Shown in pieces: positions 54,323-61,333 of a DNA stretch of 64,000 nucleotides (positions are counted from its first letter, which is position 1; each line of letters opens with the position of its first letter). Below the pieces are notes generated by a model. It saw only the letters and a program-made list of their open reading frames with translations. It made no database searches and was not told the origin of the DNA. The position numbers were made by a program, and so were the translations under genes. Source of the stretch: Mariniflexile fucanivorans (GTDB taxonomy: Bacteria; Bacteroidota; Bacteroidia; Flavobacteriales; Flavobacteriaceae); assembly GCF_004341235.1 (NCBI RefSeq), contig NZ_SLUP01000001.1, forward strand, positions 62,001-126,000, read 5' to 3'.

Positions 54323-54461
54323 AATTCATTCAATTTTTTAGCATAAACATAACATTCAAGTTCATTATTTACAAAACTAAATAATGAACTTTTTTTGTTA
54401 AGTATTTCAAAACCATCCGACTTAAAACCAATAGATTTTTATCTTTAAGGAAAAATATATT

Positions 54462-54797
54462 ATGCAAAAAACATATTACGACCCAGCCGATTTAAAAAAG
54501 TTTGGAAAAATCTCTGAATGGAATGAAGAATTAGGTGCTAAATTTTTTGAATACTACGGAAAAGTTTTTGAAGAAGGCGCTTTAACCGAAAGAGAAAAAT
54601 CGTTAATCGCATTGGCTGTTGCTCATACCATACAATGCCCTTATTGTATTGATGCCTACACGGGCGACGGCTTACAACGTGGCATCACCAAAGAAGAAAT
54701 GATGGAAGCCTTACACGTTGCTGCGGCCATTCGTGGTGGTGCATCCTTAGTACACGGCGTACAAATGATGAACAAAGTGAATAAATTGGACATGTAA
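54462..54797 (+). CDS. Arsenosugar biosynthesis-associated peroxidase-like protein (AhpD-like)
   Basis: A 111-residue protein of the carboxymuconolactone decarboxylase/AhpD fold. It has a CxxC pair (Cys59, Cys62) in AHTIQCPYCIDAYTGDGLQRG. The residue three after the second Cys, usually His in AhpD, is Tyr in CIDAYT. In AhpD the pair reduces partner proteins. It is the first gene of the arsenosugar set, 88 bases before arsS, and its family is named for this linkage. A thiol redox or arsenic-handling role is inferred; no direct evidence in the sequence fixes the substrate. Confidence 0.87.
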   Translation: MQKTYYDPADLKKFGKISEWNEELGAKFFEYYGKVFEEGALTEREKSLIALAVAHTIQCPYCIDAYTGDGLQRGITKEEMMEALHVAAAIRGGASLVHGVQMMNKVNKLDM

Positions 54798-54885
54798 ATA
54801 TGATTTACGAAGTTAGATTTACAATTTTTGAATTTATTCACATTTTGAAATCGTAATTCGTAAACCGTAATTCTAAAATCTAAAT

Positions 54886-55938
54886 ATGATTAAATCCCTG
54901 CATAAACGCAAAAGTGAACTAGCAAATAGTAATAGACAATTAGAAATTTTATCGAACAGTATTTTTCAAAGTGGAGAATTACCAACTTTTAAACACAAAA
55001 TTTCTGAAACAGGTCAATTTCCTCTGAAAGCGAAAAAGCTTGAAATTTTACAAATTAACGTAGGCTATATGTGCAACCAAGTATGTACACATTGCCATGT
55101 AGACGCTGGTCCGGACCGAAAAGAAATTATGACGCGCGAAACCATGAACCAGTGTTTGGATGTTATAAAAAAAACAGGCGCCCATACGTTAGATTTAACG
55201 GGTGGTGCCCCAGAAATGAACCCCAATTTTCGATGGTTTGTTGAAGAAGCTTCAAAAGCTGGAATTAAAGATTTTATTGTTCGCTCCAATTTAACCATTA
55301 TTACAGCTAATAAAAAGTACCACGATTTGCCTGAGTTTTTCAAAAAGCATAATGTACACGTTGTAAGCTCGATGCCGCATTGGACTAAAGGCAAAACAGA
55401 TAAACAACGTGGTGATGGCGTTTTCAATGCCTCCATTGAAGCTTTAAAAATGCTTAACGCTGTGGGTTATGGCATGCCTGACAGCAATTTGCGATTGGAT
55501 TTGGTTTACAATCCTTCGGGTGCTTTTTTACCAGGTAATCAAAAATCGTTAGAAAAAGATTTTAAAAAATCGCTTCTTGAGGAATTTAATATCCAATTTC
55601 ATAATTTATTTGCCATCACTAATTTACCCATTAGCCGTTTTTTAGATTATTTAATTGCATCTGAAAATTATGAAGATTATATGTATTCTTTAGTTGAAGC
55701 TTACAATCCTTCGGCAGTAAAAAATGTTATGTGTACCAACACCCTATCCATAAGTTGGGATGGTTTTTTATTTGATTGTGATTTCAACCAAATGCTGGAA
55801 CTGCCTGTAAACAGTAAAGCGAAACATATTTCAGATTATAATGAAGATTTATTAGAAGGTAGAGACATCGTAATTTCTCAACATTGCTACGGTTGTACCG
55901 CAGGTGCAGGAAGCAGTTGCCAAGGAAGTGTTATTTAA
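54886..55938 (+). CDS. arsS: Arsenosugar biosynthesis radical SAM enzyme ArsS
   Basis: A 350-residue radical SAM enzyme. The cluster motif CxxxCxxC is Cys63, Cys67 and Cys70 in GYMCNQVCTHCHVDAGP, with the GG motif TGGAPEMNPNF. Near the C-terminus CYGCTAGAGSSCQGS carries the Cys-rich tail; in some relatives one of these positions is selenocysteine, here all are Cys. ArsS-family enzymes move the 5'-deoxyadenosyl group of SAM to dimethylarsenite, giving the precursor of dimethylarsinoyl ribosides. A secreted rhodanese gene follows 16 bases later. arsM lies four genes downstream. Confidence 0.93.
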   Translation: MIKSLHKRKSELANSNRQLEILSNSIFQSGELPTFKHKISETGQFPLKAKKLEILQINVGYMCNQVCTHCHVDAGPDRKEIMTRETMNQCLDVIKKTGAHTLDLTGGAPEMNPNFRWFVEEASKAGIKDFIVRSNLTIITANKKYHDLPEFFKKHNVHVVSSMPHWTKGKTDKQRGDGVFNASIEALKMLNAVGYGMPDSNLRLDLVYNPSGAFLPGNQKSLEKDFKKSLLEEFNIQFHNLFAITNLPISRFLDYLIASENYEDYMYSLVEAYNPSAVKNVMCTNTLSISWDGFLFDCDFNQMLELPVNSKAKHISDYNEDLLEGRDIVISQHCYGCTAGAGSSCQGSVI

Positions 55939-55954
55939 AAATTTTATTTTCAGA

Positions 55955-56446
55955 ATGAAACAACTCATTTTTATATTACTTTTTTTTATTACACCTCTTA
56001 GTTTTTGTCAAAATTCATTATCAGATTTACTAAGCAAACACAACACAAAAAACATTGCTTACATGTCTGTTCAAGAACTCGCAATGCCAAAAACCAAGGC
56101 TCTAATTTTAGATGCAAGGGAAGTTAATGAATTCAATACAAGTCATTTAAAAAATGCCATTTATGTGGGATACAATGATTTTAACATTAAAACTATCAAA
56201 GATTTATTTCCGAATAAAACCAGCCAAATAGTAGTATATTGTTCCATAGGAATTCGTTCTGAAACCATCGCAAATAAATTAAAAAAAGAAGGTTATACAA
56301 ATATTTATAACCTTTATGGTGGTATCTTTGAGTGGAAGAATCATGGGTATCCTGTTTATAATTCTGAAGAAAAACAAACCGAAGAAGTTCACACGTTTTC
56401 TAAAGAATGGCGTAAATGGCTAACCAAAGGTAAATCTGTTTATTAA
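55955..56446 (+). CDS. Secreted rhodanese-like domain protein
   Basis: A 163-residue protein with a signal peptide (MKQLIFILLFFITPLSFCQ), so likely periplasmic. The rhodanese domain reads KTKALILDAREVNEF, with the active Cys96 in VVYCSIGIRSE and the end YTNIYNLYGGIFEWKNHGYP. The active-site loop CSIGIRSE is shaped for a sulfur or oxyanion substrate; arsenate reductase activity is possible by analogy with Acr2/CDC25-type rhodaneses but unproven. The ATG at 55955 is chosen because the earlier in-frame start lies inside arsS. The stop is adjacent to the next ATG with no gap. Confidence 0.83.
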   Translation: MKQLIFILLFFITPLSFCQNSLSDLLSKHNTKNIAYMSVQELAMPKTKALILDAREVNEFNTSHLKNAIYVGYNDFNIKTIKDLFPNKTSQIVVYCSIGIRSETIANKLKKEGYTNIYNLYGGIFEWKNHGYPVYNSEEKQTEEVHTFSKEWRKWLTKGKSVY

Positions 56447-57118
56447 ATGGGATTATTTAGTACCAACGACTCCACTGGAGATAATGAAATAGCGTTCGAT
56501 TTTCATTTTCCGAGCTCAAAAAAGGCCTTAATTATTTTTACAAGAAACCCAGAATTGGGTAAATGCAAAACCCGATTAGCAAAAACTATTGGGGATGCCT
56601 CAGCTTTAGACATTTACAAATACCTTTTAAAACATACTGCAGAAGTTGCCAAAAGCATCCCTGCAGATAAGTATTTATTTTATTCTGAAACCATTCAAAA
56701 AAATGACATTTGGGATTCTGCCGTTTTTAGAAAAAAATTGCAAAAAGGAATAGATTTAGGCACAAAAATGCATAATGCGTTTTCCGATCTTTTTTCATTA
56801 GGCTACCAAAAAGTCATCATCATAGGAAGCGATTTGCTCGATTTAAAACCTTCACATATCAATTTAGCTTTTGAAGCTTTAAATGAAAACGACTTTGTTA
56901 TCGGGCCCGCAAAAGACGGTGGTTATTACCTTTTAGGAATGACTGCGCTGCAAAACAACATTTTTGAAGATAAAGCCTGGGGCACTTCTACCGTATTAAA
57001 AGAAACCTTAAATAATTTAAAAAATTCTAGCTTTCATCTCATAGAAGAATTAAATGATATTGATACTTTTGAAGATATGAAACACTATCAAGAACTCGAA
57101 AAATACTATAAAAAATGA
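56447..57118 (+). CDS. TIGR04282-type arsenosugar biosynthesis glycosyltransferase
   Basis: A 223-residue nucleotidyltransferase/GT-A-like protein (DUF2064 type, formerly rSAM/selenodomain-associated transferase 1). It has KALIIFTRNPELGKCKTRLAKTIG, a nucleotide-binding start as in MobA/CofC-like enzymes; VIIIGSDLLDLKPSHINLAFEAL with a DLxxL motif; and FVIGPAKDGGYYLLGM. It probably activates or transfers a group to the arsenic-containing sugar. The start follows the rhodanese stop directly and its end overlaps the PNP start by four bases (ATGA), so translation is coupled. Confidence 0.86.
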   Translation: MGLFSTNDSTGDNEIAFDFHFPSSKKALIIFTRNPELGKCKTRLAKTIGDASALDIYKYLLKHTAEVAKSIPADKYLFYSETIQKNDIWDSAVFRKKLQKGIDLGTKMHNAFSDLFSLGYQKVIIIGSDLLDLKPSHINLAFEALNENDFVIGPAKDGGYYLLGMTALQNNIFEDKAWGTSTVLKETLNNLKNSSFHLIEELNDIDTFEDMKHYQELEKYYKK

Positions 57119-57927
57119 TTAAATATATAGAAGAAACCGTTACGTATTTACAAGACAAAGGATTTGAAAACCCTGAAATTGGCATTATTTTAGGCACTGG
57201 TTTAGGGCAACTTATAGATGAAATTGAAATTTTAAAAGAAGTTAGCTATAACCACATTCCTAACTTCCCAACTGCCACCGTAGAGTTCCATAAAGGGAAA
57301 TTAATTTACGGCATTTTCGAAGGCAAAAAAGTGGTGATTATGCAAGGGCGTTTCCATATTTACGAAGGCTACTCGCTACAAGATGTTACTTACCCGGTTC
57401 GCATCATGGAAAAATTAGGCATCAAAACCCTATTAATTTCCAATGCCGCAGGCGCTATCAATTTAAATTTCAAAAAAGGTGAATTAATGCTTATTGAAGA
57501 CCACATGAACCTTCAGGGAAGTTCTCCTTTAGCATTTAAAGGTGTTGAACAATTAGGGGAACGTTTTGCCGATATGAGCGCTCCTTACGATGCCGAAATC
57601 AATACAAAATTTAAAGCTATAGCAAAAAACAACAACATCACTTTGCACGAAGGTGTGTATGCCAGCGTTGTTGGTCCGCAATTAGAAACCCGCGCCGAAT
57701 ACCGTATGCTAAAAATTTTGGGCGCCGATGCCGTAGGCATGAGTACCGTTCCTGAAATTATTGTCGCAAACCATTTAAAATTAAAAGTAGCTGCAGTGTC
57801 AGTTTTGACCGATGAATGCGACCCAAATAACTTAAAGCCTGTAGATATTTCAGAAATTATTGCCATGGCAGAAAAAGCAGAACCAAACATGATTACGTTA
57901 TTTAAAGAATTGATAAAAACACTATAA
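57115..57927 (+). CDS. Purine-nucleoside phosphorylase
   Basis: A 270-residue trimeric-type phosphorylase. Signature segments are IGIILGTGLGQLIDEI (phosphate-binding Ser replaced in context by Thr-Gly), MQGRFHIYEGYSLQDVTYPVR, ISNAAGAINLNFKKGELMLIEDHMNLQG, VYASVVGPQLETRAEYRMLKILGADAVGMSTVPE, and SVLTDECDPNNLKP. It splits purine nucleosides with phosphate to base and ribose-1-phosphate. The location inside the arsenosugar set, overlapping the transferase gene by four bases, suggests it also depurinates the adenosyl-arsenic product of ArsS. That role is inferred; general purine salvage is equally possible. Confidence 0.93.
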   Translation: MIKYIEETVTYLQDKGFENPEIGIILGTGLGQLIDEIEILKEVSYNHIPNFPTATVEFHKGKLIYGIFEGKKVVIMQGRFHIYEGYSLQDVTYPVRIMEKLGIKTLLISNAAGAINLNFKKGELMLIEDHMNLQGSSPLAFKGVEQLGERFADMSAPYDAEINTKFKAIAKNNNITLHEGVYASVVGPQLETRAEYRMLKILGADAVGMSTVPEIIVANHLKLKVAAVSVLTDECDPNNLKPVDISEIIAMAEKAEPNMITLFKELIKTL

Positions 57928-57929
57928 AT

Positions 57930-57996
57930 AGTTTACAGTCGCAGTCTTAGTTTTCAGTCTAACTGATGCTGCAAACTGTGACTGAGACTGAATACT
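57930..57996. repeat. CAGTCNCAGTC-type intergenic repeat
   Basis: The PNP-arsM gap contains several short copies of CAGTC/AGACTG in both orientations (CAGTCGCAGTCTTAGTTTTCAGTC in parts, then GTGACTGAGACTGAA). This low-complexity palindromic filler is of a kind often seen between flavobacterial genes. It could fold weakly. No promoter was recognised in it. Confidence 0.55.
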
Positions 57997-58003
57997 AAAA
58001 ATA

Positions 58004-58972
58004 ATGAGTTACCTAGAAACCACACATAATGTATATAAAGAAGCAGCCTTAACCCCAGATGTTGGATTATGCTGTACCACAAACCCTATTTGGGAATTAC
58101 CAGGTTTAAAAATTCCTAAAATAATGCAGGAAATGAATTATGGCTGTGGTTCCACAGTGCATGCACGCGATTTAACCAACAATCCAAAAATGTTATATGT
58201 TGGTGTTGGTGGCGGTATGGAATTGTTACAATTTTCATATTTCAATCGACAAAAAGGAGGCGTTGTTGGTATTGATGTGGTTGATGAAATGCTGGAAGCA
58301 TCTCGCAAAAATTTTATAGAAGCTGAAGCACAAAACCCATGGTTTAAAAGCAACTTTGTAGACCTTAAAAAAGGAGATGCCATGAACCTTCCTGTTGAAG
58401 ATAACAGTATTGATGTGGCTGCACAAAATTGTCTATTCAATATTTTTAAAGCAGACGATTTAAAACAAGCCATCGCCGAAATGTACCGAGTACTAAAACC
58501 TCATGGCAAACTGGTAATGAGCGACCCAACCTGTGAACAGGAAATGAACGACGAACTTAGAAACGACGAACGCTTACGTGCACTTTGCCTAAGCGGAAGT
58601 TTACCAATTGCAGACTATATAAAAGCATTAACCGATGCTAGTTTTGGCACTATTGAAATTAGAGCCAGAAAACCATATAGAATTCTAGATTCAAAACATT
58701 ATCTGACAGATGAGCTCATCTACATCGAATCTATTGAAGTCGCCGCAATTAAAGACCCTATGCCAAGTGATGGCCCTTGTATATTTACAGGAAAAGCCGC
58801 TATTTATTATGGCACGCAAGATTATTTTGATGATAAACAAGGACACGTATTGCTAAAAAACCAACCATTAGCTATTTGCGATAAAACGGCGGGTGCTTTA
58901 GCTTCATTAAATAGAGACGATATTTTTATTAGCGAATCTACCTATCACTATGATGGTGGTGGGTGTTGTTAA
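58004..58972 (+). CDS. arsM: Arsenosugar biosynthesis arsenite methyltransferase ArsM
   Basis: A 322-residue class I methyltransferase. The SAM-binding motif is MLYVGVGGGMELLQFSYF, then GVVGIDVVDEMLEASRKN and MNLPVEDNSIDVAAQNCLFNIF. Arsenic-binding cysteines are plentiful: a vicinal pair Cys23-Cys24, Cys48, Cys in AQNCLF, DPTCEQ and RALCLSG, and a C-terminal GGGCC pair. ArsM enzymes methylate arsenite to mono- and dimethyl forms, the substrate of ArsS. This form with paired cysteines at both ends is the arsenosugar-linked type. It lies downstream of PNP on the same strand. Confidence 0.92.
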   Translation: MSYLETTHNVYKEAALTPDVGLCCTTNPIWELPGLKIPKIMQEMNYGCGSTVHARDLTNNPKMLYVGVGGGMELLQFSYFNRQKGGVVGIDVVDEMLEASRKNFIEAEAQNPWFKSNFVDLKKGDAMNLPVEDNSIDVAAQNCLFNIFKADDLKQAIAEMYRVLKPHGKLVMSDPTCEQEMNDELRNDERLRALCLSGSLPIADYIKALTDASFGTIEIRARKPYRILDSKHYLTDELIYIESIEVAAIKDPMPSDGPCIFTGKAAIYYGTQDYFDDKQGHVLLKNQPLAICDKTAGALASLNRDDIFISESTYHYDGGGCC

Positions 58973-58983
58973 ATTATAAGACT

Positions 58984-59006
58984 CTTCAGGTTTTTAAAAC
59001 CTGAAG
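58984..59006. repeat. Hairpin repeat CTTCAGGTTTT-T-AAAACCTGAAG
   Basis: Two perfect 11-base arms around one T between arsM and the desaturase gene. The same AGGTTTTxAAAACCT core is seen at 7119-7152. T run after it is short (GTTT), so termination would be weak and the downstream genes may still be read from the arsM transcript. Confidence 0.65.
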
Positions 59007-59026
59007 GTTTGTCACTGTACCAAATC

Positions 59027-59914
59027 ATGGAAAAATACATAAACATCATAAAAAAATCCTATTCAGGTTATTGGAATTACTTGAAACACGAGTTAATTTC
59101 CATTAACCACTGGGATAACTTTTTTTATGGTTTAATTGTTATTTCTTTAGTGGTTTGGTTTCTTGAAATTATTTTTCCTTGGCGAAAAAACCAATCCATT
59201 TTCAGGAAAGATTTTTGGTTGGACACGTTTTACATGTTCTTCAATTTCTTTCTTTTAAATTTAATTGTACTTATTGCATTATCAAACACTGCTGCCGAGT
59301 TATTAAATGATGGATTAAAAAATATTGGGCTTTCTGTTTCTAAGCTTCAACTTTTTGATGTAGATGATTTACCTAAATGGTTGGGTTTATTTATTTTCTT
59401 TTTGGTTTCAGACTTCGTACAATGGAACACGCACCGCTTATTACATCGTGTTCCTTTTCTTTGGAATTTCCATAAAGTACATCATTCCGTTAAAGAAATG
59501 GGTTTTGCTGCACATTTGCGTTACCACTGGATGGAACCTGTAGTTTACAAATCGTTTTTATACATTCCAATAGCAATTATCGGAGGTTTTGATGCACAAG
59601 ACGTGGCCATTGTTTACTTCTTCAGTATTGTTATAGGCCATCTAAACCATGCTAATTTGGGGTGGGATTATGGTTTTTTAAAATACATATTCAATAACCC
59701 AAAAATGCATATATGGCACCACGCTAAAGAACTGCCAAAACATGCTAGATATGGCGTTAATTACGGACTCACCCTAAGCATTTGGGATTATATCTTTAAA
59801 ACCGACTATATTCCGCATAACGGAAAAGACATAGAACTTGGTTTTAATGGCGATGAAACGTTTCCGAAAGATTTTATAAGTCAGGAGATATACCCTCTTA
59901 ATGATAAATCATGA
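59027..59914 (+). CDS. Fatty acid hydroxylase/sterol desaturase family membrane protein
   Basis: A 295-residue diiron membrane enzyme. The helices are at about 32-50, 68-90, 123-140 and 180-215. The three His boxes are HRLLHRVPFLWNFHKVHHSV (HxxxH and HxxHH) and HIWHHAKELPKH. The family oxidises membrane lipids or hydrocarbons using oxygen. The start ATG at 59027 is chosen because the earlier in-frame TTG lies in a repeat hairpin. Its end overlaps the next gene by four bases. It sits in the middle of the arsenosugar genes, hinting at arsenolipid formation or modification; the substrate is not readable. Confidence 0.88.
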   Translation: MEKYINIIKKSYSGYWNYLKHELISINHWDNFFYGLIVISLVVWFLEIIFPWRKNQSIFRKDFWLDTFYMFFNFFLLNLIVLIALSNTAAELLNDGLKNIGLSVSKLQLFDVDDLPKWLGLFIFFLVSDFVQWNTHRLLHRVPFLWNFHKVHHSVKEMGFAAHLRYHWMEPVVYKSFLYIPIAIIGGFDAQDVAIVYFFSIVIGHLNHANLGWDYGFLKYIFNNPKMHIWHHAKELPKHARYGVNYGLTLSIWDYIFKTDYIPHNGKDIELGFNGDETFPKDFISQEIYPLNDKS

Positions 59915-60612
59915 AAAAACACCACTACATTATAATTGCATTACTTTTTAGCTTTACAATTAATTCGCAAAATTTCAATCACTCCCCTTGGAACACGTTA
60001 CTTCAAAAACATGTTTCAACTGATGGGCATGTAAATTATAAAACATTTAAAAGCGACAACAAAGCTTTAGGCAATTATATAAAATCTTTAGGTGCACATA
60101 CGCCACAAGATTATTGGACAAAAGAAGAAAATCTTGCCTATTGGATAAACGCCTATAACGCATTAACCATCGATTTAATTCTACGCAATTACCCTATTAA
60201 AAGCATTAAAGATATTAAAAATCCTTGGGGTCAAAAACTTTGGCAATTAGGAGATACATGGTATAATTTAAGCGATATTGAACATGAAATTCTACGTAAA
60301 ATGGACGAACCCCGCATTCATTTTGCCATTGTTTGTGCTTCGGTTTCTTGTCCGAAATTATCAAACGAAGCTTATTCATCAAAAAATCTAAACCATCAAC
60401 TTACAAAAGCAACAAAAGATTTTTTAAGTGATTCTAGCAGAAATTTCATTTCGAAAGACACATTAGAACTATCTAAAATATTTCAATGGTTTAGTAAAGA
60501 TTTCAAACAAAACGGCGATTTAATCGATTTTCTAAACCTATACACAAACTTTCAAATTTCAGCGAAAGCGAAACTTAATTACAAAGATTATAATTGGAAT
60601 TTAAATGAATAA
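59911..60612 (+). CDS. Secreted DUF547 protein
   Basis: A 233-residue protein with a signal peptide (about 20 residues, ending FTINSQ). The DUF547 domain covers most of the rest: VNYKTFKSDNKALGNYIKSLG, ENLAYWINAYNALTIDLILRNYPIKSI, IHFAIVCASVSCPKLSNEAYSSKNLN, and LSKIFQWFSKDF. The conserved Cys pair and Asn/Tyr suggest a peptidase- or transglutaminase-like fold, but the activity is not established. It starts within the stop of the desaturase gene and ends eight bases into the next transferase, so it is part of the same translationally coupled string. Confidence 0.87.
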   Translation: MKKHHYIIIALLFSFTINSQNFNHSPWNTLLQKHVSTDGHVNYKTFKSDNKALGNYIKSLGAHTPQDYWTKEENLAYWINAYNALTIDLILRNYPIKSIKDIKNPWGQKLWQLGDTWYNLSDIEHEILRKMDEPRIHFAIVCASVSCPKLSNEAYSSKNLNHQLTKATKDFLSDSSRNFISKDTLELSKIFQWFSKDFKQNGDLIDFLNLYTNFQISAKAKLNYKDYNWNLNE

Positions 60613-61333
60613 AATTTCAATCATTATCCCCATTCTTAATGAAGCAGAAAACATTGAAAATCTGCTAATCCATATTCTTAAAAACACTTCAAAAGAAAAT
60701 ATTTCAGAAATTATTGTTGTTGATGGTGGGAGTATCGATGAATCTTTAAACATTGTTAACGAGTTCGTATCGAGTATTTATAAGTCAAAATCTAATAAAA
60801 TAACCGTATTAAATTCCGAAAAAGGACGCGCCAAACAAATGAACCTGGGAGCAAAACATGCCTCTGGAAACATCCTCTACTTTTTGCATGCCGATTCCTT
60901 TCCCCCTGAAAATTTTGATAAATACATACTAAAAGAAATAGAAAAAGGTCTTGAAGCGGGTTGTTTTATTATGAAGTTCAATAGCAACCATTGGTGGCTT
61001 AAACTCGCTGGCTTTTTAACAAAACTACCATGGAAATCTTGTAGAGGTGGCGACCAAAGTTTGTTTGTTTCAAAATCACTTTTCAAAAATATAGGTGGTT
61101 TTGATGAAACTTTTGTTATTTATGAAGACAACGATTTTATTCGTAAACTATACGCCCGAAAACAATTTGTAGTAATTCAAAAATGGCTAACTACCTCTGC
61201 CAGATGCTATAACACCAATGGTGTTTTTAAACTTCAGTACCATTATTTTATGATATATCTTAAAAAATGGCTTGGAGCTTCACCCGAAAATTTAAATGCT
61301 TATTATAATAAGCATGTAAATGTTAAAAACTAA
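60605..61333 (+). CDS. TIGR04283-type arsenosugar biosynthesis glycosyltransferase
   Basis: A 242-residue GT-A family 2 transferase (formerly rSAM/selenodomain-associated transferase 2). KISIIIPILNEAENIENLL, IIVVDGGSIDES, and AKHASGNILYFLHADSFPPENF hold the nucleotide-sugar and metal sites (HADS). GGFDETFVIYEDNDFIRKL is the usual acceptor-side motif. Together with the TIGR04282-type protein it is a named companion of ArsS. It likely adds or transfers the sugar moiety of the arsenosugar. It overlaps the DUF547 gene by eight bases and is the last gene of the coupled string. Confidence 0.88.
   Translation: MNKISIIIPILNEAENIENLLIHILKNTSKENISEIIVVDGGSIDESLNIVNEFVSSIYKSKSNKITVLNSEKGRAKQMNLGAKHASGNILYFLHADSFPPENFDKYILKEIEKGLEAGCFIMKFNSNHWWLKLAGFLTKLPWKSCRGGDQSLFVSKSLFKNIGGFDETFVIYEDNDFIRKLYARKQFVVIQKWLTTSARCYNTNGVFKLQYHYFMIYLKKWLGASPENLNAYYNKHVNVKN

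Follow-up and report, generated by a model that had tools for sequence, protein, structure and literature searches.

We examined a 64,000-nt stretch of the Mariniflexile fucanivorans genome (hereafter the window), in which nine open reading frames (ORFs), all on the + strand, span positions 54462-61333 and form what is probably a conserved arsenosugar pathway and no plain resistance operon. Family-model scans placed all nine gene products above a curated family cut-off, and the ORFs and families proposed in the initial annotation were thereby confirmed. The cluster opens with an AhpD-like companion (54462-54797; TIGR04169, 194.7 bits against a cut-off of 120) and the radical S-adenosylmethionine (SAM) protein ArsS (54886-55938; TIGR04167, 444.5 bits against an equivalog cut-off of 300), in which C32, C36 and C39 of the CxxxCxxC motif are invariant across seven aligned ArsS sequences; in this family the enzyme carries out arsenic adenosylation. 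These are followed by a rhodanese-domain protein (55955-56446; NF045521, 203.7 bits against 145) with a signal-like N-terminus as judged by eye, for which we preferred the ATG at 55955, as the GTG at 55904 in the ORF list would overlap arsS, a TIGR04282/DUF2064 protein (56447-57118; 213.4 bits against 134) that we propose to be a nucleotidyltransferase, and a purine nucleoside phosphorylase (PNP; 57115-57927; NF006054, 345.7 bits against 218). ArsM of the arsenosugar subfamily comes next (58004-58972; NF038099, 570.8 bits against 400), then an FA_hydroxylase-family membrane protein with His clusters recognised by eye (59027-59914; PF04116, 94.3 bits against 31; the start at 59027 was preferred to an alternative TTG at 59009), a DUF547 protein, again with a signal-like N-terminus by eye (59911-60612; PF04784, 97.5 bits against 27), and a TIGR04283 family-2 glycosyltransferase (60605-61333; 224.8 bits against 182).

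Overlaps of 4, 4 and 8 bases join TIGR04282 to PNP, FA_hydroxylase to DUF547 and DUF547 to TIGR04283, respectively, while the rhodanese and TIGR04282 reading frames abut; the remaining gaps measure 88 (AhpD/ArsS), 16 (ArsS/rhodanese), 76 (PNP/ArsM) and 54 nt (ArsM/FA_hydroxylase). The cluster had been described as mostly translationally coupled, and the overlaps are real, but with just four of the eight junctions overlapping or abutting this was an overstatement. Instead, genes are closely spaced in two blocks, one running from ArsS to PNP and the other from FA_hydroxylase to TIGR04283, and AhpD and ArsM stand apart from these. A Pfam scan of ten further window genes (44-54 kb and 63-64 kb, the first 44 kb being unscanned) and of the next downstream gene detected no ars gene, such that ArsR, arsenate reductase and arsenic efflux are absent from the nine cluster genes and the 11 other window genes scanned, although no genome-wide search for ArsR or the reductase was made. 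An acr3 gene is present in the genome on a different contig. The earlier view of an arsenosugar-type cluster distinct from a plain resistance operon is thus upheld by the families, gene order, phylogenetic profile and neighbour scan.

Profile searches (E-value limits of 1e-40 for ArsS, 1e-30 for PNP, 1e-45 for TIGR04283 and 1e-90 for ArsM) detected ArsS in 148 of 199 Flavobacteriaceae genomes, representing 147 of 198 genera. We then compared 80 neighbourhoods of ~20 kb, taken in even steps through the 134 ArsS-positive genomes with ArsS >10 kb from the contig start. Together with the window, these 81 neighbourhoods contained AhpD in 77, TIGR04282-like proteins in 73, PNP in 55, rhodanese in 50, DUF547 and ArsM in 45 each, TIGR04283 in 41 and FA_hydroxylase in 28. 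The comparison of gene order called for by the initial annotation found the set and order of the window repeated in many neighbourhoods across genera, and because of this recurrence the cluster is more than a chance association. Likewise, an ATG lay between -20 and +5 of the upstream stop at 40/50 TIGR04282-PNP and 25/39 DUF547-TIGR04283 junctions, compared with 0/14 SusC-SusD junctions, in a count that used the ATG closest to -4 and so favours overlaps. Two variant layouts were observed. In one, SusC/SusD-like, weakly symporter-like and phosphoesterase genes are inserted in the cluster; in L046, L047, L059, L103 and similar loci, the SusC/SusD-like genes are accompanied by a metallophosphoesterase and a 444-aa protein with weak likeness to symporters, and relatives of the latter two recur next to ArsS in Pseudomonadota too. 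In the other (split) layout, AhpD-ArsS, often with a TetR gene alongside, lies apart from the remaining genes. Relatives of Pit-type phosphate transporters, a known entry route for arsenate, were present in 7/81 of these neighbourhoods and in 5/82 of a second set described below, with 10 of the 12 adjoining ArsM or ArsS (one verified with Pfam and one by annotation), which fits arsenic as the substrate.

Across the 199 genomes, ArsM of the NF038099 type was found in 117, every one ArsS-positive, and TIGR04283 in 138, of which 130 also have ArsS (18 genomes have ArsS only and eight TIGR04283 only). The PNP family is wider, with 175 genomes comprising all 148 ArsS-positive and 27 of the 51 ArsS-negative ones, and we rejected the idea that it is exclusive to ArsS genomes. 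Linkage was counted from the coordinates of listed matches, which cover 149 of the 175 PNP genomes and 136 of the 138 TIGR04283 genomes. A first count within 9.5 kb of ArsS (55/81) was too low because of the variant with inserted SusC/SusD-like and other genes, and a 20-kb distance was therefore used. Among genomes with both genes listed, PNP lies ≤20 kb from ArsM in 98/99, from TIGR04283 in 113/121 and from ArsS in 99/126, while ArsS is near ArsM in 94/117 and near TIGR04283 in 96/128. By these counts, both ArsM and TIGR04283 are linked more closely to PNP than to ArsS. We also looked for scattering of the companion genes. PNP is distant from ArsS in 27/126 genomes; of these, 21 have ArsM, with PNP ≤5 kb away in 20, and 25 have TIGR04283, with PNP ≤6 kb away in 24.

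Taken together, we consider it somewhat better than an even chance that this is a conserved arsenosugar operon encoding a whole route from ArsM through ArsS, PNP and TIGR04282 to TIGR04283. The first two steps are known for their families: ArsM would dimethylate arsenite, and ArsS would attach the dimethylarsenic moiety to the SAM-derived adenosyl group at its 5' carbon, giving 5'-deoxy-5'-dimethylarsinoyl adenosine. We infer all steps after ArsS, and the final acceptor. PNP would remove adenine with phosphate, as methylthioadenosine (MTA) phosphorylase does with MTA, yielding 5-deoxy-5-dimethylarsinoyl-ribose-1-phosphate, which TIGR04282, as a CofC-type nucleotidyltransferase, would couple to a nucleotide to form a nucleoside diphosphate (NDP)-arsenosugar. 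TIGR04283 could then transfer the activated arsenosugar to an alcohol acceptor, for which glycerol or a phosphatidylglycerol-type lipid is most likely, and FA_hydroxylase, DUF547 and rhodanese may serve in tailoring, movement or protection of the product.

The proposed phosphorolysis is supported at the sequence level by the substrate pocket of PNP and by the MTA phosphorylases of some Pseudomonadota clusters. According to an excerpt of PMC5147791, H257 of human PNP contacts O5', and the hydrophobic nature of the corresponding pocket in MTA phosphorylase is what allows 5'-substituted nucleosides as substrates. In an alignment with solved PNPs, three of the five best matches carry His at this position and the window protein carries Ile, and in the fetched loci Ile or Val replaces this His in 55/55 cluster PNPs. 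His is kept in 11 PNP copies that form a separate clade (support 100/100), ten of which are from ArsS-negative genomes, the other being a second copy in one genome (G033) that carries both types. A further 13 distant matches in the second locus set have Ala or Val at this position and, where checked, are MTA phosphorylases. The window protein narrowly passes TIGR01700, the inosine/guanosine-specific PNP family (298.8 bits against 293.35), yet has Ile in place of the 5'-OH-contacting His (human H257) expected of that family. It fails the MTA phosphorylase model TIGR01694 (92.7 bits against 274.85) and is a member of the PNP family for which we propose a functional likeness only. Alternatively, PNP could be a salvage enzyme for MTA or 5'-deoxyadenosine, placed in the operon for other reasons, with another enzyme opening the arsenical adenosine and TIGR04282 and TIGR04283 using another sugar. 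Consistent with this, PNPs of the cluster type are also found without ArsS. However, the tight linkage of PNP to ArsM and TIGR04283, which persists in genomes with a distant ArsS, and the frequent overlap of its frame with that of TIGR04282, argue against salvage, and the genome of the window also encodes a DeoD-type phosphorylase, so that ordinary purine salvage need not rest on the cluster PNP. We regard the salvage explanation as fairly unlikely.

Plasmids of Acinetobacter portensis and Burkholderia glumae carry ArsS, TIGR04282, TIGR04283 and DUF547 together with an annotated MTA phosphorylase. A second locus set includes the best 80 of 590 confirmed loci, ranked by similarity to the first sequence of the ArsS alignment, and its loci are nearly all titled Pseudomonadota or subgroups (one record is titled Halobacteria) and many on short contigs; 82 of 84 loci were counted, L229 and L276 being dropped as no ArsS was picked. 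Genes were called with a naive ORF picker that probably misses genes in GC-rich DNA and left the annotated B. glumae MTA phosphorylase unpicked. These 82 loci contained TIGR04283 in 49, TIGR04282 in 45, ArsM in 15, DUF547 in 12, MTA phosphorylase in 11 and FA_hydroxylase in six. The 11 MTA phosphorylases near ArsS, found by script, compare with 0.3-0.4 expected, B. glumae being additional by annotation, and in four of the 11 no gene separates the enzyme from ArsS. In a survey meant to be free of locus selection, among 250 genomes of one order, with ArsS in 80 and the MTA phosphorylase family in 196 (coordinates listed for 140), the two lie ≤20 kb apart in 6/55 genomes with both listed, compared with 0.6 expected, one of the six being the centre genome, which was picked for having the pair. 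All linked copies score at least 290 bits, a line set in this analysis, and account for 6 of the 11 ArsS genomes with such a copy and 0 of the 44 with lower-scoring copies only. In seven of eight genomes inspected, a search at an E-value of 1e-40 gave no MTA phosphorylase other than that near ArsS, so that this copy probably serves general salvage too, which again speaks for the salvage explanation.

TIGR04282 had been called a transferase, and while the protein does pass the cut-off of that family, the name may mislead, as the modelled fold (mean predicted local distance difference test (pLDDT) score 90.5; 37 sequences) is closest to nucleotidyltransferases. Its nearest fold is 3cgx, a member of its own family of unknown function, followed by the 3-phosphoglycerate guanylyltransferase 7p97 (Z 21.7), MM2497 (20.3) and FbiD (18.6), and then IspD and TarI. 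Glycosyltransferases first appear at rank 31 (mannosylglycerate synthase, Z 14.6), or rank 21 in the order of Foldseek. The sequence profile also matches 2i5e, 7p97 and 6bwg. With the CofC/FbiD guanylyltransferases (7p97, 6bwg, 6bwh) the window protein shares the fold and a K-T-R-L stretch at ~15% identity. We tentatively read TIGR04282 as a nucleotidyltransferase, with the caveat that glycosyltransferases have the same fold at lower Z and that a fold alone proves no activity. The NCBIfam model is named a glycosyltransferase although its label is glyco_like_cofC, and a TIGR04282 gene is already annotated fbiD in an excerpt of PMC8801600. Our analysis suggests that the family bears a misleading functional name.

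Several observations weigh against the pathway outlined above. Among 13 ArsS-negative PNP loci fetched, one of which (L212) ends at a contig edge, the TIGR04282-PNP-TIGR04283 module is kept in five genomes (G001, G018, G037, G129 and G184) and a cluster-type PNP occurs alone in seven further loci, which indicates that neither the PNP type nor the module is arsenic-specific. The five loci (L200, L201, L206, L209 and L211) also lack ArsM and have rhodanese-TIGR04282-PNP with DUF547 and/or TIGR04283; in G018, TIGR04283 was placed beside PNP by the genome search. It could therefore be argued that the rhodanese-TIGR04282-PNP-DUF547-TIGR04283 module converts a 5'-modified adenosine that has nothing to do with arsenic into a glycolipid, and that ArsS and ArsM joined later. 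The TIGR04283 protein of three more ArsS-negative genomes (G104, G158, G183) points the same way, as do the PNP scores, which without ArsS (469-484 bits) resemble those of split-layout ArsS genomes (474-491). However, in a tree of 89 of the 112 PNP rows (from which the 13 distant matches, a duplicate of the window copy and nine further PNPs were omitted), the five ArsS-negative module genomes and ten split-layout ArsS genomes, from the 27 known, form one set of 15 (support 97/91). Within it the five are scattered, requiring four changes, at least two of them forced by starred branches, and this fits repeated loss of ArsS, although the bootstrap is not settled. TIGR04283 and ArsS also occur together in far more genomes (130) than the 18 and eight exceptions, and an origin of the module outside arsenic metabolism appears quite unlikely.

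Further points against the arsenosugar route concern its individual steps. The solved PNPs 4lna and 4m1e carry Leu at the His position, and the Asp at the position of human N243, which we had tried as an MTA phosphorylase-like sign and dropped, is common to His-type PNPs, so base preference is not readable from it. The linkage of MTA phosphorylase to ArsS is real, yet a minority pattern, and PNP was beside ArsS in none of 20 neighbourhoods from other Bacteroidota families, so that in these a different gene, or a PNP located elsewhere, must provide this step. For TIGR04282, glycosyltransferase matches at Z 14-15 rank equally with many of those to IspD and GlmU, and the nearest characterised nucleotidyltransferases use phosphoglycerate, phospholactate or phosphoenolpyruvate and no pentose-1-phosphates. 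TIGR04283 was not found in 18/148 ArsS genomes, and the suggested acceptor draws on known arsenosugar chemistry. Finally, 31/148 ArsS genomes lack NF038099 ArsM at an E-value of 1e-90, including one from the window's own genus (G134, locus L087). These strains may rely on other organisms for methylated arsenic.

A different possibility is that the cluster imports and degrades algal organoarsenicals instead of making them. In favour of this, one cluster variant includes SusC/SusD-like genes, and the genomes without NF038099 ArsM may start from imported methylated arsenic. However, the window's own cluster has no SusC/SusD, its transferases look synthetic, and ArsS is reported to form a carbon-arsenic bond in an excerpt of PMC12159101, and we consider a breakdown function very unlikely.

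The initial annotation had seen candidates for every remaining step in this cluster, which goes too far: PNP, TIGR04282 and TIGR04283 can now be tied to the pathway in a proposed order, with FA_hydroxylase, rhodanese and DUF547 as possible accessories. FA_hydroxylase looks like an optional tailoring enzyme, given its presence in only 28/81 neighbourhoods, and had no match in PHROGs. The rhodanese was found in just 1/82 loci of the second set, while DUF547 recurs in both sets (45/81 and 12/82). His137, Cys142 and Cys147 of DUF547 are invariant in 11 aligned sequences, and its model (mean pLDDT 89.9) gave no PDB match below a Foldseek E-value of 2.0 and no VIA match with a Z of at least 5 among 286 chains, which does not imply a novel fold.

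All three longer gaps of the cluster fold as RNA hairpins, namely 54798-54885 (z -3.54), 57928-58003 between PNP and ArsM on the + strand (-26.7 kcal/mol, z -4.94) and 58973-59026 between ArsM and FA_hydroxylase (z -2.79), the last of which contains a perfect 11-bp inverted repeat (58984-59006, no strand). These hairpins could set differing transcript levels. A perfect 14-bp inverted repeat at 54358-54391, between an acyl-CoA dehydrogenase gene and the cluster, is perhaps a transcript end. Scanning the cluster for promoters and terminators returned fewer sites than the shuffle mean, and we therefore claim no transcript boundaries. In the second locus set, three other families were observed near ArsS: a fusion of a VTT (TVP38-like) membrane domain with a mercuric-reductase-like flavoprotein in 31/82 loci (e.g. 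L220:13293-15539; one member scanned), DUF3047 in ten (e.g. L259:12352-13131) and a TIGR03169-type oxidoreductase in seven (e.g. L272:657-1769).

The ArsM-ArsS arsenosugar pathway of cyanobacteria, reportedly described by Xue in 2019 and Cheng in 2021, uses the same two families as the window. Synechococcus elongatus, included as a control genome, has ArsS and TIGR04283 as the window does, with no match to the NF038099 ArsM model at an E-value of 1e-90, whereas the window adds PNP, FA_hydroxylase and rhodanese, all within a single compact cluster. Six of the nine cluster genes are covered by the NCBIfam arsenosugar set (TIGR04167, TIGR04169, TIGR04282, TIGR04283 and NF038099) and NF045521, while PNP, FA_hydroxylase and DUF547 receive no arsenic-related name. 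MTA phosphorylase (TIGR01694) shares with the window PNP the proposed reaction type and the lack of a His at the 5' position. To our knowledge, no enzymes have been assigned to the steps between the ArsS product and the sugar. The arsinothricin cluster of Burkholderia gladioli likewise combines ArsM with radical SAM chemistry, according to an excerpt of PMC12159101, but its product differs and its three genes belong to an operon for arsenic resistance. In marine algae, arsenosugars generally make up the main water-soluble arsenic species, according to part of PMC11009773, and titles and abstract openings among the literature matches listed gave no link between a nucleoside phosphorylase and arsenosugar synthesis.

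The conserved extra genes suggest where the missing middle steps of the arsenosugar pathway may lie. In a tentative extension that we place a little below even, the route would proceed through a nucleotide-activated arsenic sugar, with PNP and the CofC-type enzyme making NDP-arsenoribose and the family-2 transferase putting it on a lipid or glycerol; PNP in Flavobacteriaceae and MTA phosphorylase in some Pseudomonadota would then be two separate recruitments for one step, and the three genes would offer a general means of turning 5'-modified adenosines into glycosides. Two different phosphorylases, one in each of two phyla, point to a shared chemical step. Beyond what the family names alone provide, the conserved linkage gives an enzyme order of phosphorolysis, nucleotidyl activation and glycosyl transfer that can be tested in vitro.

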